Source: Cystobacter fuscus (GTDB lineage Bacteria; Myxococcota; Myxococcia; Myxococcales; Myxococcaceae). From it: 64,000 nt of DNA. Positions 21,755 through 30,674 of this stretch are shown piece after piece (the first letter of the stretch is position 1; each line of letters begins with the position of its first letter). A program made the translations under genes and the position numbers. Below the pieces are notes generated by a model. The model did no database searches. It had not been told where the DNA came from and was given only the letters and a program-made list of their open reading frames with translations. The stretch lies in NCBI RefSeq assembly GCF_002305875.1, contig NZ_CP022098.1, positions 10,354,001 through 10,418,000 of the forward strand, in the 5' to 3' direction.

Positions 21755-22330
21755 TCAAACTTCGACGAACCTGGGGCCACTCAGCCCCTCGTCTTCCAGT
21801 GCCCGTTTCACGCGCTCGGAGACGATGAGGGCCACGGGCCAGCCCCATGGCCGGAAGATGTGGGCGTCCCCGACCTTCTCAGGGTCCACTTTCAGCCCGA
21901 CCACGTTCCGGTAGTGGCCCACTCTCTCGGGCTCTCCATGACGGGGTTCCCAGAAGGAGAGTTCTTCGCACCGAGCCTCATCCACACACCGGATGAGGCG
22001 AAGGGTGTTGAGGACGAAGTAGGGCTCGGGATGCTCTTCGACCCGTGCCGGAATGAGCTGTATCTGATGTTGGATTCCCAGCCGCTCACAAAGGGTGGCG
22101 AACCGACCATTGACCACCGCGAAATTGAGGCCCGTCTGGCTGAAATCCAGAGCACGTCCCCGACGATACAAAGGGAGGACAAGCGGCGCATCCCAATGGA
22201 GCGCCCTGCCTCGCAAGAAGTCCTGGGGGATGATTTCTCTCCCCTGCGCATCCAGCGGGCTTTCCACGTGCCACCGTCCCTCGATGTGCACGTCATCCAT
22301 CAGGCGGAAATATCTGGATTGAGGTCTCAT
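21755..22330 (-). CDS. Imm11 (DUF1629)-like immunity protein
   Basis: 191 residues, cytosolic. The C-terminal half carries the Imm11 pattern: PYFVLNTLRLIRCVDEARCE, then PERVGHYRNVVGLKVDPEKVGDAHIFRPWGWPVALIVSE and a final helix and strand. It follows the AHH nuclease toxin with a 4-bp overlap (ATGA), the usual toxin-then-immunity order, so it probably neutralises that toxin in the producer. A second, broken Imm11 gene is at 49.0-49.6 kb and shares the FRP-GWxVALIVSE core. Confidence 0.85.
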   Translation of the reverse strand: MRPQSRYFRLMDDVHIEGRWHVESPLDAQGREIIPQDFLRGRALHWDAPLVLPLYRRGRALDFSQTGLNFAVVNGRFATLCERLGIQHQIQLIPARVEEHPEPYFVLNTLRLIRCVDEARCEELSFWEPRHGEPERVGHYRNVVGLKVDPEKVGDAHIFRPWGWPVALIVSERVKRALEDEGLSGPRFVEV

Positions 22331-23697
22331 GGTTGTTTCGTGAGGAGCTTGTTGAGCCGCGACCCATGCTTACAGATATCGCCCGCGATTTCATCGAGTG
22401 CTTCGACGAGCTTGCGCTTGCACTCAGTTCGCGTTTGGCAGGTTGAAATCGCATCGTTCAGACGGCTGTAGATTTCCTGGTGGTACTCCTCGGGATGGGG
22501 CCCCTGATGCCCGACGAGATGCACGATGTTGGCGGGTTCGTCGAGGCTCATCCCCGCCCGCTTGAAGATCTGCTCGAACACAGGGGTCCAGGGACCACCT
22601 CTGACTTCGGCGGTGTCGTTCTTGTTGGTGGCGATGTGATGTCCCTTGGCCTCGCCCTTGTTCGATTCATCCCGGCAAGCCCCCATCGTCCGGGAAGCGC
22701 TCGCCGCGCCAGCGGTCGCGGCGGCCGCTGTACTCGCGGATGCCCCCATGAGCATCACGGTACCATCCGCCACACTGACCTGCGCGCGAGATCCCACGCC
22801 TATTGACCAACTTCCTCGCGTGCCTCCTGCCGGCAGAGCAAAGCGTGGAGGAGAGAAACGCGCCCACGGTCCTCCTTGTGGCACCTCCGGAAGACTCCGA
22901 GCCAACTTCGCTCCCGCCACGGTCACCAGTACCCGCAGTCCCACTCCGCCTATCGCCTTTCCAAAACGCATGGCCACCGCCTCCAACTGCTCCTGGGTCC
23001 TGGCCGCTTCTGACTCCCGGTACAAATTCAGGCAGGCCACTCCCACGGCGTGGAGTTCAACCGCGCTGTAGGTCATCAACAATCCCACGGTGACCGCTGC
23101 GGCCAGCGCTTTGGAGAAGAGGGGCTCGGGCGCCGCCCACGTCATCATGTATAGCATCATGGAGAGCGCCATGGAGTACGCGGTGGTGGGCGAACTGAGC
23201 AGCGAGATGGCGGCCTCGCGCACTCCCTCATCCATGTAGCGCGGTGAAAGTTTGAGCGCCTGGAACCACCGGCTGTTCTCCAAAGAGGATGGCCGTGGCA
23301 TCGATGACGTTCCGAAGATCCTCTCGTACCCCTCACGAAGGCGTTTCTCCAATTGAGCGGCTTGTTCCTCGTGCGAAGGACAGCATGCAGCAGCACCTGC
23401 TGGCAACACACAGGTTGAGCAGCTCATGTGCCCAGTGGTCCCCGAGCGAGGCACCTGGAACTCCGTCTCCAATGCCTCCACGAATGCTCGCGCTTCGTCG
23501 ATGGTGAGGCCGGCCAGGAGAGGATGTGGTGGAATGCGCTTGAAGGCGAACTCAAGTCTCCGGCCATGAGGTGAGCCGTGAGGTTCACTCACCAGCACAG
23601 GGTGCAATACCGGGAGGCGGGACCCGACTTCGGGTGGATCTGCACGGACCGCGAGTGGAAACAGCAACAAGAGAAAGAGGATGGCTCGCGGATTCAT
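22327..23697 (-). CDS. SitA5-like polymorphic toxin with C-terminal AHH nuclease domain
   Basis: 456 residues. N-terminal signal peptide RAILFLLLLFPLAVRA without a clear lipobox cysteine, a Cys-containing region (MSCSTCVLPAGAAACC), two hydrophobic segments (MALSMMLYMMTWAAP and LAAAVTVGLLMTYSAVEL), and a conserved GVGLRVLVTVAGAKLARSLP stretch typical of myxobacterial SitA5-type delivery parts. The C-terminus has KGHHIATNKN (His353-His354), then PANIVHLVGHQGPHPEEYH, the AHH variant of the HNH/endonuclease VII fold, which cuts nucleic acid. SitA toxins pass between kin cells by outer-membrane exchange; whether this one does is inference. Immunity gene directly downstream. Confidence 0.82.
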   Translation of the reverse strand: MNPRAILFLLLLFPLAVRADPPEVGSRLPVLHPVLVSEPHGSPHGRRLEFAFKRIPPHPLLAGLTIDEARAFVEALETEFQVPRSGTTGHMSCSTCVLPAGAAACCPSHEEQAAQLEKRLREGYERIFGTSSMPRPSSLENSRWFQALKLSPRYMDEGVREAAISLLSSPTTAYSMALSMMLYMMTWAAPEPLFSKALAAAVTVGLLMTYSAVELHAVGVACLNLYRESEAARTQEQLEAVAMRFGKAIGGVGLRVLVTVAGAKLARSLPEVPQGGPWARFSPPRFALPAGGTRGSWSIGVGSRAQVSVADGTVMLMGASASTAAAATAGAASASRTMGACRDESNKGEAKGHHIATNKNDTAEVRGGPWTPVFEQIFKRAGMSLDEPANIVHLVGHQGPHPEEYHQEIYSRLNDAISTCQTRTECKRKLVEALDEIAGDICKHGSRLNKLLTKQP

Positions 23698-27858: not shown

Positions 27859-28386
27859 ATGGACACCAAGATCGATCGCGAGCCAGAGGACAAGGTCGAG
27901 CCCACGCTCAAGCTCAAGTTCTACAGCCACGCGACGCTGGAGTGCCGCGACATCCAGCGCACGCGGCGATTCTTCAAGGAGTTCCTCGGCTTCGAGACCG
28001 TCCAGATGTCGGACAAATCGTTCTGGGCCCGGCTCGGTGGTGAGCAGATCATCGTGGTCGTGCAGGGTCCGGCTCGCGCGAAGGAGGAGATGCCCTTCCT
28101 CAACCACAATGGGCTCGACGTCGAGAACGAGGCCGCCGTCGACGCGACCTACGAGGTGGTGAAGCGCGACGCGGAGAAGTGGGGCCTGAAGAAGATCACG
28201 AAGCCGGTCGTCCAGCACGGGACCTATTGCTTCTACTTCTGGGACATGGACGACAACTCCTGGGAAATCCTCTCCAATCCACCGGGCGGTTACTCCTGGG
28301 GCTTCGCGCGCGGAGACCAGGAGGGTGCCGGGCATATGAGCCGCACGTTCAAGCGCCCGGACTCGACCCTGAGCAAGGGAAAGTAG
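27859..28386 (+). CDS. VOC superfamily (glyoxalase/dioxygenase-like) protein
   Basis: 175 residues. KFYSHATLECRDIQRTRRFFKEFLGFE is the first beta-alpha-beta unit of the VOC fold with His as a likely first metal ligand; GTYCFYFWDMDDNSWEILSNP near the end has the ExLxNP-type metal Glu. One full pair of beta-alpha-beta-beta-beta modules is present, so it is a single-domain glyoxalase/bleomycin-resistance/extradiol-type protein. The substrate is unknown. The ATG at 27859 is the first that starts just before the domain. Confidence 0.87.
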   Translation: MDTKIDREPEDKVEPTLKLKFYSHATLECRDIQRTRRFFKEFLGFETVQMSDKSFWARLGGEQIIVVVQGPARAKEEMPFLNHNGLDVENEAAVDATYEVVKRDAEKWGLKKITKPVVQHGTYCFYFWDMDDNSWEILSNPPGGYSWGFARGDQEGAGHMSRTFKRPDSTLSKGK

Positions 28387-28499
28387 CCGCGGTTGGAGCG
28401 GCTCATGGCTACCGATTGAGCGGGAGGCTCGAATCGCCCATGCGGCATCCACGCATGGCGCAGCCCGAACTTGTAGCAACACCGAGGGGAATGAGAAAA

Positions 28500-29087
28500 A
28501 TGGCGTTGCTTCTCCTGACCGCCAATGCCCCAGCTGCAATCAAGCGTGTCCGTTGGACGCTTGCCGCTACCTTGCGTTCGCGACTGAACGGCGCAGCGGT
28601 CACGCCTCATCGGCTTGCACACCTGGCCGCACTCCTGCCGCTAGCCGTCCTGTTTTCGGGCTGTGCGTCAACCGTGACAGGTCAAATCCAACCAGCACAT
28701 TTCCAGTTCACTACGACTGTACCACAAAGAACACCCGGCCCGGGTGGGTGGCGCGTGGCGTGTGTTCACGCACAGATCAAAAACGGAGATACAGGGGAGA
28801 TATATACCTGCCCTTTCGGCATCGAGATGCCAATAGAAAACAACAGCGGTCCCATATCCACACCTCTTGCCCAGCGCATCTCGGCAGACTGTGCCAACGA
28901 GGCCGCATACGCAGTGCTCTCAACAATGACCAAGCCTCCACCACCACCGCTCTACACACTGTGTATGACTGTTAGAAAAGCGTTCGAGTCGAGGCTCAGC
29001 GCAGCCATTCCGGGCTCTCGAGTCAAATCGACCTGCAACTCCACGGCAAAGCCGGTCATATTTGGCATTCCCGCACCCAAGCCCTAA
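28500..29087 (+). CDS. Cys-containing lipoprotein, partner of the 29.1-kb gene
   Basis: About 195 residues. A lipoprotein signal LAHLAALLPLAVLFSGCAS ends with lipobox FSGC near residue 56; the ~35 residues ahead of it are unusually long for a signal, so the true start may lie further in. The mature part has RVACVHAQIKNGDTGEIYTCPFGIEMP, SADCANEAAYAV, YTLCMTVRKAF and STCNSTAKP, with five cysteines that probably form disulphides. The ATG at 28500 is preferred over 28491 because GAGGGG is ten bases upstream. It is 15 bp ahead of an immunity-like gene, so an exported effector is possible. AT-richer than its neighbours. Confidence 0.65.
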   Translation: MALLLLTANAPAAIKRVRWTLAATLRSRLNGAAVTPHRLAHLAALLPLAVLFSGCASTVTGQIQPAHFQFTTTVPQRTPGPGGWRVACVHAQIKNGDTGEIYTCPFGIEMPIENNSGPISTPLAQRISADCANEAAYAVLSTMTKPPPPPLYTLCMTVRKAFESRLSAAIPGSRVKSTCNSTAKPVIFGIPAPKP

Positions 29088-29102
29088 CCATCCGGACTTT
29101 TC

Positions 29103-29675
29103 GTGCTCCCCTCCAAAGAAGACCTGATTGCCACCGTCAGGAAATATTACAATTCGAGCAACGCCTTCATGTTCACGACAGAACCGAGTCCCGAAACGAA
29201 ACGACATGACGATATCTGGAAACAATGGATTGCCCACATGGAGCCCTGGTACGCATTCAGGGACGAGTTGCGGAGCGCACTTCCTGATTACACAATCGGT
29301 GAAACATATCCATCAATGGATGGCGGGCCCCGGTGCATGGTTTATCTACCAAAAGAGTCATGGTTCCCCCAATCCAACTGGGACGTCGTGGGCTGTGTGA
29401 GCCTGTTGGCACCTGTCTACTTCGTGTATGGCGTGGAATGGGACTACATCGACGGCCGTAGGCAAAACTTCAGGGCCAGTTTCGAACAACCCCCGCCCAA
29501 CATGGCCTGGCCGGACCAGGTCGTCGCCATGACGATTGAAAAGATGTTTGGCTTCAGCGCATTTCCTCGTGAGCTGGCGGAAACACCCGTGCCCCTTTAC
29601 GCCGGATTGCTCGAGCCCTCCGAAACAACCCTTTTCCATACTCTTTTCACGAGTGATCCAAGCAACATTCCGTAG
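29103..29675 (+). CDS. ~190-aa protein paralogous to the 14.7-kb gene; candidate immunity protein
   Basis: 190 residues, cytosolic, AT-richer than average. It shares length and motif order with the 14663-15235 product: an N-terminal helix ending YYNSSNAF, WDVVGCVSLLAPVYFVYGVEW, a Pro-rich FEQPPPNMAWP, and C-terminal ETPVPLYAGLL...LFHTLFTSD. It lies 15 bp after the lipoprotein gene and is likely cotranscribed, the layout expected of an exported effector followed by its immunity gene. No established family is recognised and no catalytic residues are evident. Confidence 0.65.
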   Translation: MLPSKEDLIATVRKYYNSSNAFMFTTEPSPETKRHDDIWKQWIAHMEPWYAFRDELRSALPDYTIGETYPSMDGGPRCMVYLPKESWFPQSNWDVVGCVSLLAPVYFVYGVEWDYIDGRRQNFRASFEQPPPNMAWPDQVVAMTIEKMFGFSAFPRELAETPVPLYAGLLEPSETTLFHTLFTSDPSNIP

Positions 29676-29747
29676 CAAGGAGAGACGTGGAGGGCCCGTT
29701 CCGCGCCAGGCTGCCGGTGACGCCGTGAAGGTTCCGCCGGGAAGGAA

Positions 29748-30140
29748 TCAAAGGACTCGGACCGACTCGAGGAAGACGTGGCGCCCCTCGGGGGTGACGA
29801 TGAAGTCGAACGCTCCATAGTTGAGCCCCAGCGCGTCCATCAGCTTCAACACGCGGGTGTGCACCGGCTCGGGCAGCGTGTAGGGCCGCCACGCATCGAG
29901 GAGTGCCACGCCCTCCCGGCGCCAGTCCTCGCGGGCCCCGGGCAGCTCGCCGCGAAGGCACGCACCGCCTCCGGGTCGTTGGTCATCAGCGTGCGGGGCA
30001 CCCTGCGGCTCCATGTCCGGGGGAAGGCGCTGGGCCGTCGCGTTGCGGCGGTACCAGACGGAGGAGACCTCGGCCAGCTCGAGCTCCCCCTCGGGTCCGG
30101 AGAGCTGCCCCCCAGCGGCCTCGTCGAGCGAGAGCTGGAG
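29748..30140 (-). pseudogene. decayed MvdC/MvdD-type ATP-grasp graspetide maturase
   Basis: Three pieces of one enzyme survive in order on the minus strand. First, LQLSLDEAAGGQLSGPEGEL and LELAEVSSVWYRRNATAQRL, the family's substrate-binding domain. Then, in another frame, VPRTLMTNDPEAVRAFAASC, its hinge. Then, back in the first frame, YTLPEPVHTRVLKLMDALGL and NYGAFDFIVTPEGRHVFLE, the metal-binding end of the ATP-grasp. The ~40 N-terminal residues, roughly the central ATP-binding third and the C-terminal tail after VFLE are deleted. It cannot be active. It lies just downstream of a microviridin-type precursor, its natural substrate. Confidence 0.8.
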
Positions 30141-30190
30141 GTCTCATGGGTGTCAGGCAGCCCTCGGAGGGCGAGAGGGGTCGAGGGTCA

Positions 30191-30379
30191 CTAACCGTCT
30201 TCGCAATCCGAGGGCCACTTCCTGGTGATGGGGCCCCCTTCATCCGAGTCCGAGGGGAACTTCAGGGTCTGCAGCGGAGCGCCACCGGCGGCCTGCTCGA
30301 GTTCCTGGGCCTCGAGCAGGCGTGCGAAGAACGGTCTCTTGCCCTTCTGCTGGGACGAGTCCTGTTTGTCCTTCTTCAT
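30191..30379 (-). CDS. microviridin/marinostatin-like graspetide precursor with two cores
   Basis: 62 residues. The leader has RPFFARLLEAQELEQ (residues 15-29), matching the PFFARFL(E) recognition helix of microviridin leaders. Two core motifs follow: TLKFPSDSDE (38-47) and TRKWPSDCED (52-61), both fitting T-x-K-x-P-S-D with acidic residues behind, the pattern cross-linked into ester and amide rings in protease-inhibitor graspetides. The second core contains a cysteine. The ATG at 30379 has GGAGG seven bases upstream; a longer start would add MAWRLV. The maturase gene just downstream is broken, so modification would need an enzyme in trans. Confidence 0.88.
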   Translation of the reverse strand: MKKDKQDSSQQKGKRPFFARLLEAQELEQAAGGAPLQTLKFPSDSDEGGPITRKWPSDCEDG

Positions 30380-30674
30380 GACCAACCTCCATGCCACCCG
30401 TTGATCAGGTGGTCACTGGAGTTAGAGTCCAGCGCGGTGAAATGTCACGGCGGGCGCGCCACGAGCGCGGCCCCTTCGCCTGTCTGCTGACGGTGGAGCC
30501 GTGCGCACCAAACGCTCACGGACAGGCGCCAGCATTCCCCTCCGCGGAGGGCGCAACGCGGCCGCCGATAACTCGGAAAAGGCTCGCTACTGAAGGGCAC
30601 GGGTAGACGGGCCACGAAGCGCTTGGGACTCGCCCCGAGTTGTACCATGAGAGGGGAGTTGCTTCCCCGACCTC
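30380..30674. other. divergent promoter space of precursor and SCO gene
   Basis: 295 bp with no gene. Close to the precursor start is an interrupted palindrome CTGGA-GTTAGAG-TCCAG at about 30416-30432 that could be an operator for it. Nothing else stands out. Confidence 0.4.

Follow-up and report, generated by a model that had tools for sequence, protein, structure and literature searches.

Among the closest described systems is AMdnA of Anabaena sp. PCC 7120, which belongs to class II (PMC5934393, PMC13039773), i.e., to the microviridin precursors with multiple cores, as defined in the available part of PMC13039773. According to the accessible text of PMC5934393, the ligase AMdnC is distributive on multi-core substrates and also processes foreign MdnA; the same text holds a counter-case, in which the ligase MdnC handled foreign multi-core AMdnA poorly. 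The linked residues of the precursor studied in the accessible part of PMC7823629 are T38-D44, S43-E46 and K40-E47. That part also describes an Asp at position 10 for microviridin E, and the Asp at position 9 of AMdnA (D95) makes a lactone (excerpt of PMC5934393). Microviridin clusters are already known from Archangium and Cystobacter, as stated in the available portions of PMC5323630 and PMC12766979. Stand-alone or trans-served microviridin precursors were not found in our literature search, which is no proof of novelty, with subscription literature (e.g., Ahmed 2017) outside its scope.

We analyzed a 64,000-nucleotide stretch of Cystobacter fuscus DNA (hereafter, the window), which corresponds to C1:10354001-10418000 of a single-contig genome of 12.35 Mb. 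A 62-residue ORF with an ATG start occupies the minus strand at 30379..30191 and encodes the peptide MKKDKQDSSQQKGKRPFFARLLEAQELEQAAGGAPLQTLKFPSDSDEGGPITRKWPSDCEDG; the plus-strand reading at 30191-30379 is an unrelated frame and yields nonsense. The peptide matches the profiles NF033738 (microviridin precursor; 41.3 bits against a cut-off of 26) and PF12559 (Inhibitor_I10; 37.5 bits against 21), and a sister species (G003) has an ortholog with 87% identity at the same chromosomal place; the two scores and the syntenic ortholog rule out a chance ORF. The leader (residues 1-33; 30281..30379, minus strand) contains PFFARLL at residues 16-22, in accord with the PFFARFL-type motif of microviridin precursors, and GG at residues 32-33. 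Two cores follow this single leader, as in class II precursors, which have at least two cores behind one leader. These data show that the gene truly encodes a microviridin precursor of class II, with two cores. The initial annotation, which proposed a microviridin-type (graspetide) precursor with a PFFAR-type leader and two differing cores, one of them with a cysteine, is thus upheld by both profiles and by the sequence; the gene is real, but two things were overlooked, namely that it lies on the minus strand and that, immediately downstream, the mvdC/mvdD operon is wrecked.

A likely ribosome-binding sequence, GGAGG, lies at 30386..30390 on the minus strand. An alternative longer start, GTG at 30397, would give 68 amino acids; the ATG is favored, because an ATG is found at the matching place in 13 related loci with the same leader type. 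Consensus searches found neither a sigma-70-like promoter nor a terminator, which is a weak test in a GC-rich organism, and a scan of viral contigs for a viral or phage origin found no relative. A short inverted repeat is present at 30398-30416 on the minus strand, and also in L042, L047 and other loci just upstream of the ribosome-binding sequence; of 17 loci, 5 have a z value below -2, the repeat being weak or absent in others, and it could be an operator or an RNA hairpin. Elsewhere in the window (21758-23697, minus strand), a gene for an AHH-nuclease protein (PF14412) is followed by an Imm11 immunity gene (PF07791), by domain a polymorphic toxin-immunity pair.

Core 1 (TLKFPSDSDE, residues 38-47; 30239..30268, minus strand) and core 2 (TRKWPSDCED, residues 52-61; 30197..30226, minus strand) both contain TxKxPSD followed by acidic residues at positions 9 and 10. 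In core 1, the numbering of T38, K40, S43, D44, D46 and E47 coincides with that of the linked residues in the accessible part of PMC7823629, and this pattern predicts the links T38-D44, S43-D46 and K40-E47. The corresponding residues of core 2 (T52, K54, S57, D58, E60 and D61) have the same spacing, and the predicted links are T52-D58, S57-E60 and K54-D61. Since core 1 has its residues at the published link numbers, core 2 repeats their spacing, and Asp is known at both positions 9 and 10, neither core needs a new linkage.

In the sister species (L039), the gene order is LysR, glyoxalase-like (a label that we assume for this neighbor gene in both species), mvdD, mvdC, precursor, SCO1, cNMP-binding and radical SAM, and the window has the same order. 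The window aligns with the sister locus up to 28402 and again from 30145. Three remnants of mvdD on the minus strand, lying in differing frames, align with the sister gene: an N-terminal part (30003..30142, 92% identity), a second piece (29947..30002, 97% identity, with the match extending to 29937), and a C-terminal part (29766..29946, 94% identity). The overlap of the second and third remnants, 29937-29946, is a 10-bp repeat, CCCGGGCAGC, which may mark a deletion junction. The ORF at 29748-30014, which spans the third remnant, scores 82 bits with TIGR04184, far under the cut-off of 475. The 3' end of mvdD is replaced by a segment of 1,363 bp (28403..29765) to which nothing in the sister locus corresponds; the ORFs of this segment, 28500-29087 (the tail of the ORF 28179-29087) and 29103-29675, both on the plus strand, have no Pfam or NCBIfam match. 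Comparison with the sister places a deletion junction at 30142..30145: ~1.14 kb, comprising mvdC and the 5' end of mvdD, has been lost, and the missing sister bases (7431-8570 of L039) contain the whole profile-matched stretch of mvdC. The intact MvdC and MvdD that lie beside the precursor in a complete microviridin cluster are thus not found here, mvdC being absent and mvdD reduced to three out-of-frame fragments. These results show that the precursor's own ligase genes were destroyed in the window lineage, whereas the operon is complete at the corresponding place in the sister species. For the mvdD remnants, compared to the sister gene, dS is 0.17 and dN is 0.03, and the resulting dN/dS of 0.17 indicates that most of the divergence predates the loss, which is therefore recent relative to the split from the sister; dS of the flanking genes is 0.09-0.10.

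One MvdC/MvdD pair is encoded elsewhere in the genome, at C1:2660397-2661350 and 2661402-2662349, with frames open over the whole profile. The best family scores, 434.9 bits for MvdD and 402.5 bits for MvdC, do not reach the equivalog cut-offs (475 and 425), and neither do those of any ligase found in our survey of relatives. The initial annotation had proposed a search for a second MvdC/MvdD-type ligase elsewhere in the genome; the pair is there, and the objection that the genome holds no ligase fails. Two precursors are located in front of this pair, with a leader nearly the same as that of the window precursor; the near-identity is centered on PFFA(R/K)LLExQELEQxxGG. In the leader-binding hairpin, whose contact residues we took from the available part of PMC7823629, no difference separates the ligases of the two locus types. 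A further stand-alone precursor (L053) lies at C1:5469830, a place common to G001 and G003, and no MvdC/MvdD was found by tblastn in its 16 kb. Altogether, there are four precursors at three places and one MvdC/MvdD pair in the window genome. L053, together with L132 and L133 (scanned for precursor motifs only), represents a second kind of stand-alone two-core precursor, with an MKQET leader and at a location common to three genomes of the genus.

Among 144 relatives, the window precursor has a match in 20 and an MvdD-type match (E<=1e-60) is found in 23, with 19 of the 20 included in the 23; the exception, G116, has a weak precursor match (E 0.002), and this co-occurrence follows descent and does not represent 144 independent trials. 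Six stand-alone loci with the window's leader type (L041, L043, L044, L048, L049 and L051) were detected in five Archangium-group genomes, G010, G030, G038, G051 and, twice, G057 (Archangium lansinium MIWBW). No MvdC/MvdD was found within about 8 kb of these loci (17-18 kb fetched, tblastn E<=1e-4); all five genomes have an MvdC/MvdD pair elsewhere. In seven others (G003, G016, G039, G046, G052, G062 and G065, the last being Hyalangium versicolor H56D21), the pair adjoins the precursor. The stand-alone loci include two syntenic sets, G010/G030 and G038/G051/G057. In 22 key codons (leader and ring), the stand-alone set shows 0-3.5 nonsynonymous substitutions, compared to 14.8-34.4 expected under neutrality, in 15 non-independent pairs; the codons were located by motif and the loci by similarity, and precursors decayed past detection would be missed. 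The dN/dS of the G030/G010 leader is 0.17, and the leader/core split rows of L045/L046 and L049/L051, where an earlier GG was taken, were left out.

G038 has a single NF033738 match, the stand-alone precursor at C1:9629280, in which core 2 has lost one acidic position, and a single MvdC/MvdD pair at E<=1e-20, located at C1:275203-277157, 9.35 Mb away on one contig (3.3 Mb if circular). By synteny, this pair occupies the place where other genomes keep both the precursor and the pair, and the surrounding 16 kb has no leader or core motif; the microviridin of G038, if made, is probably matured in trans. A ligase tree with a paralog outgroup had a root too distant and mostly open forks, and was redone without the paralog on joined alignments. 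In this tree, G038 joins other distant-pair ligases with moderate support (91.9/78; bootstrap of the whole group, 53), so the grouping of its pair with the distant-pair loci rests on synteny.

Judging from sequence comparison, we consider it plausible, with the balance about even, that the window precursor, if expressed, is served in trans by the distant MvdC/MvdD pair. Considering the motif, the near-identical leaders and the hairpin, the PFFARLL helix would be bound by the distant MvdD and MvdC; in each core, two lactones would then be formed by MvdD and one lactam by MvdC. Next, a C39-type ABC transporter could cut the peptide after GG and export it (C39 matches in the genome comprise five in open frames of 734-763 amino acids and one weaker), with release of two units that, from what is typical of the family, may be protease inhibitors. 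Tentatively, and at just under even confidence, we extend this reading to the Archangium/window-genus group: precursors would repeatedly leave ligase operons, be kept as stand-alone genes, and depend for maturation in trans on a single MvdC/MvdD pair that they have in common, with the window representing the separation soon after the loss of the cis ligases.

The main rival to maturation in trans is a decaying relic, i.e., a precursor unmatured after the loss of mvdC and mvdD, in which relaxed constraint would explain the Cys, the changed tail and the missing final residue. The wrecked operon agrees with decay, and so does the clustering of changes at the 3' end: in the 3' end and flank (30145-30211), 15 of 63 sites differ from the sister, compared to 22 of 269 in 30212-30480, and the sister's last codon, Tyr TAC, is TAG in the window, directly before a TGA common to both, so that this diverged end could be a sign of decay. 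Conversely, the leader is intact, as is every ring-forming position of the two cores, the upstream 100 bp are 91-92% identical to the sister, a candidate ligase pair is present in the genome, and core positions change fast also between orthologs with intact ligases. Between the window and the sister, the key codons show 2 nonsynonymous substitutions versus 6.4 expected (P ~0.05), in a comparison that includes the functional branch of the sister; the loss of the cis ligases is so recent that a conserved window gene is no proof of present function, and selection after the loss is not measurable, the mvdD remnants themselves still bearing the mark of purifying selection. We regard the relic as possible, while leaning against it. 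An un- or poorly modified precursor might also act as a decoy, occupying the distant ligases and lowering the output of the other microviridins, given that, in the available part of PMC5934393, AMdnC is competitively inhibited (Ki 1.3 uM) by a precursor with dead cores; with the ring-forming residues kept in both window cores, this is barely credible. Equally, it is extremely improbable that the window precursor is processed by either of two other ligases of the genome (L054/L055; C1:3508572 and C1:6891858), which are both graspetide-type ATP-grasps but score best with TIGR04187, not with MvdC/MvdD.

The initial annotation read the cysteine of core 2 as a possible source of another chemistry or of a disulphide dimer, and considered the altered acidic tail unusual. 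This residue, Cys59 (codon 30203-30205, minus strand), is at position 8 of the core, outside the predicted links, which are complete without it. We surveyed 105 cores of 33 distinct precursors (58 cores in 29 short precursors and 47 in four long repeat precursors); the core and Cys counts leave out the motif-failing precursors L027/L038/L140 (G004), L139 (G041) and L028 (G116). Position 8 accepts 14 different residues, with Cys in 2 of the 105 cores, namely core 2 of the window and core 1 of L047 (Hyalangium versicolor). The window codon TGC is one base apart from the TGG (Trp) of the sister; no direction of the Trp/Cys change could be assigned, the other orthologs carrying other residues there. 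The claim of special chemistry thus finds no support. The tail fares no better: ED ends 44 of the 105 cores and is unremarkable in the set as a whole. Its share is 38 of 47 cores in long precursors and 6 of 58 in short ones; the short precursors' cores most often end in DE (38 of 58), with ED in the minority. In favor of a role for the cysteine, 10 of the 14 precursors with the window's leader type have exactly one Cys after the leader motif, versus 0 of 19 others (Fisher P 1e-5, inflated by kinship of the sequences). However, its place shifts, its presence differs between sister pairs, and the precursors counted never carry two or more Cys beyond the leader motif, which excludes an intramolecular disulphide and leaves an intermolecular dimer. 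The single-Cys trend may reflect chance, in a tail that changes fast, or a demand for a free thiol; as an explanation of the window precursor, cysteine chemistry is very improbable. That Cys59 or the ED tail points to new chemistry is not supported, and Cys59 would be a tolerated residue at a variable position. The window precursor is an authentic, fairly ordinary two-core microviridin, and the initial annotation was wrong only on the supposed oddities.

The long precursors of the survey (L023/L137, L025/L138, L026/L136 and L135, in G028, G007, G061 and G183) have a single leader motif followed by 10 to 13 TxKxPSD cores, and those of G028 and G061 carry an N-terminal region of ~130 residues ahead of the leader. 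Outside myxobacteria, a MAG of Planctomycetota (L122, JASMLP010000101.1) encodes a precursor with a PFFA-type leader and one recognised core, TRKYPSDEEG.

The locus raises the question of whether one ligase pair serves scattered precursors. If maturation of stand-alone precursors in trans is true, mining undercounts microviridins in these myxobacteria. The tolerance of MvdC/MvdD for foreign precursors could be probed in G038 and in the window genome, each of which would offer a simple natural test.

Compared to class II precursors of the AMdnA type, as far as the available parts of PMC5934393 and PMC13039773 describe them, the window precursor shares the single PFFAR-type leader, the tandem TxKxPSD cores and the GG motif; it differs in having two cores but one GG, no ligase gene beside it, and Cys at position 8 of core 2. 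The mvdD-mvdC-precursor operon of the sister species is alike in chromosomal place and in its precursor, whereas both of its ligases are intact and its core 2, TRKWPSDWDDSY, has no Cys. The distant locus of the window genome (C1:2659.9-2662.3 kb) similarly combines two-core precursors with MvdC/MvdD, but its leader, with PFFAKLL, is of the short type, its ligases are intact, and Cys is absent. The stand-alone precursors of the Archangium group, A. lansinium MIWBW among them, resemble the window precursor in leader type, in the lack of an adjacent ligase and in the presence of a pair elsewhere; however, they occupy other chromosomal places, no ligase remnants were found beside them, and they have apparently been orphaned for longer.
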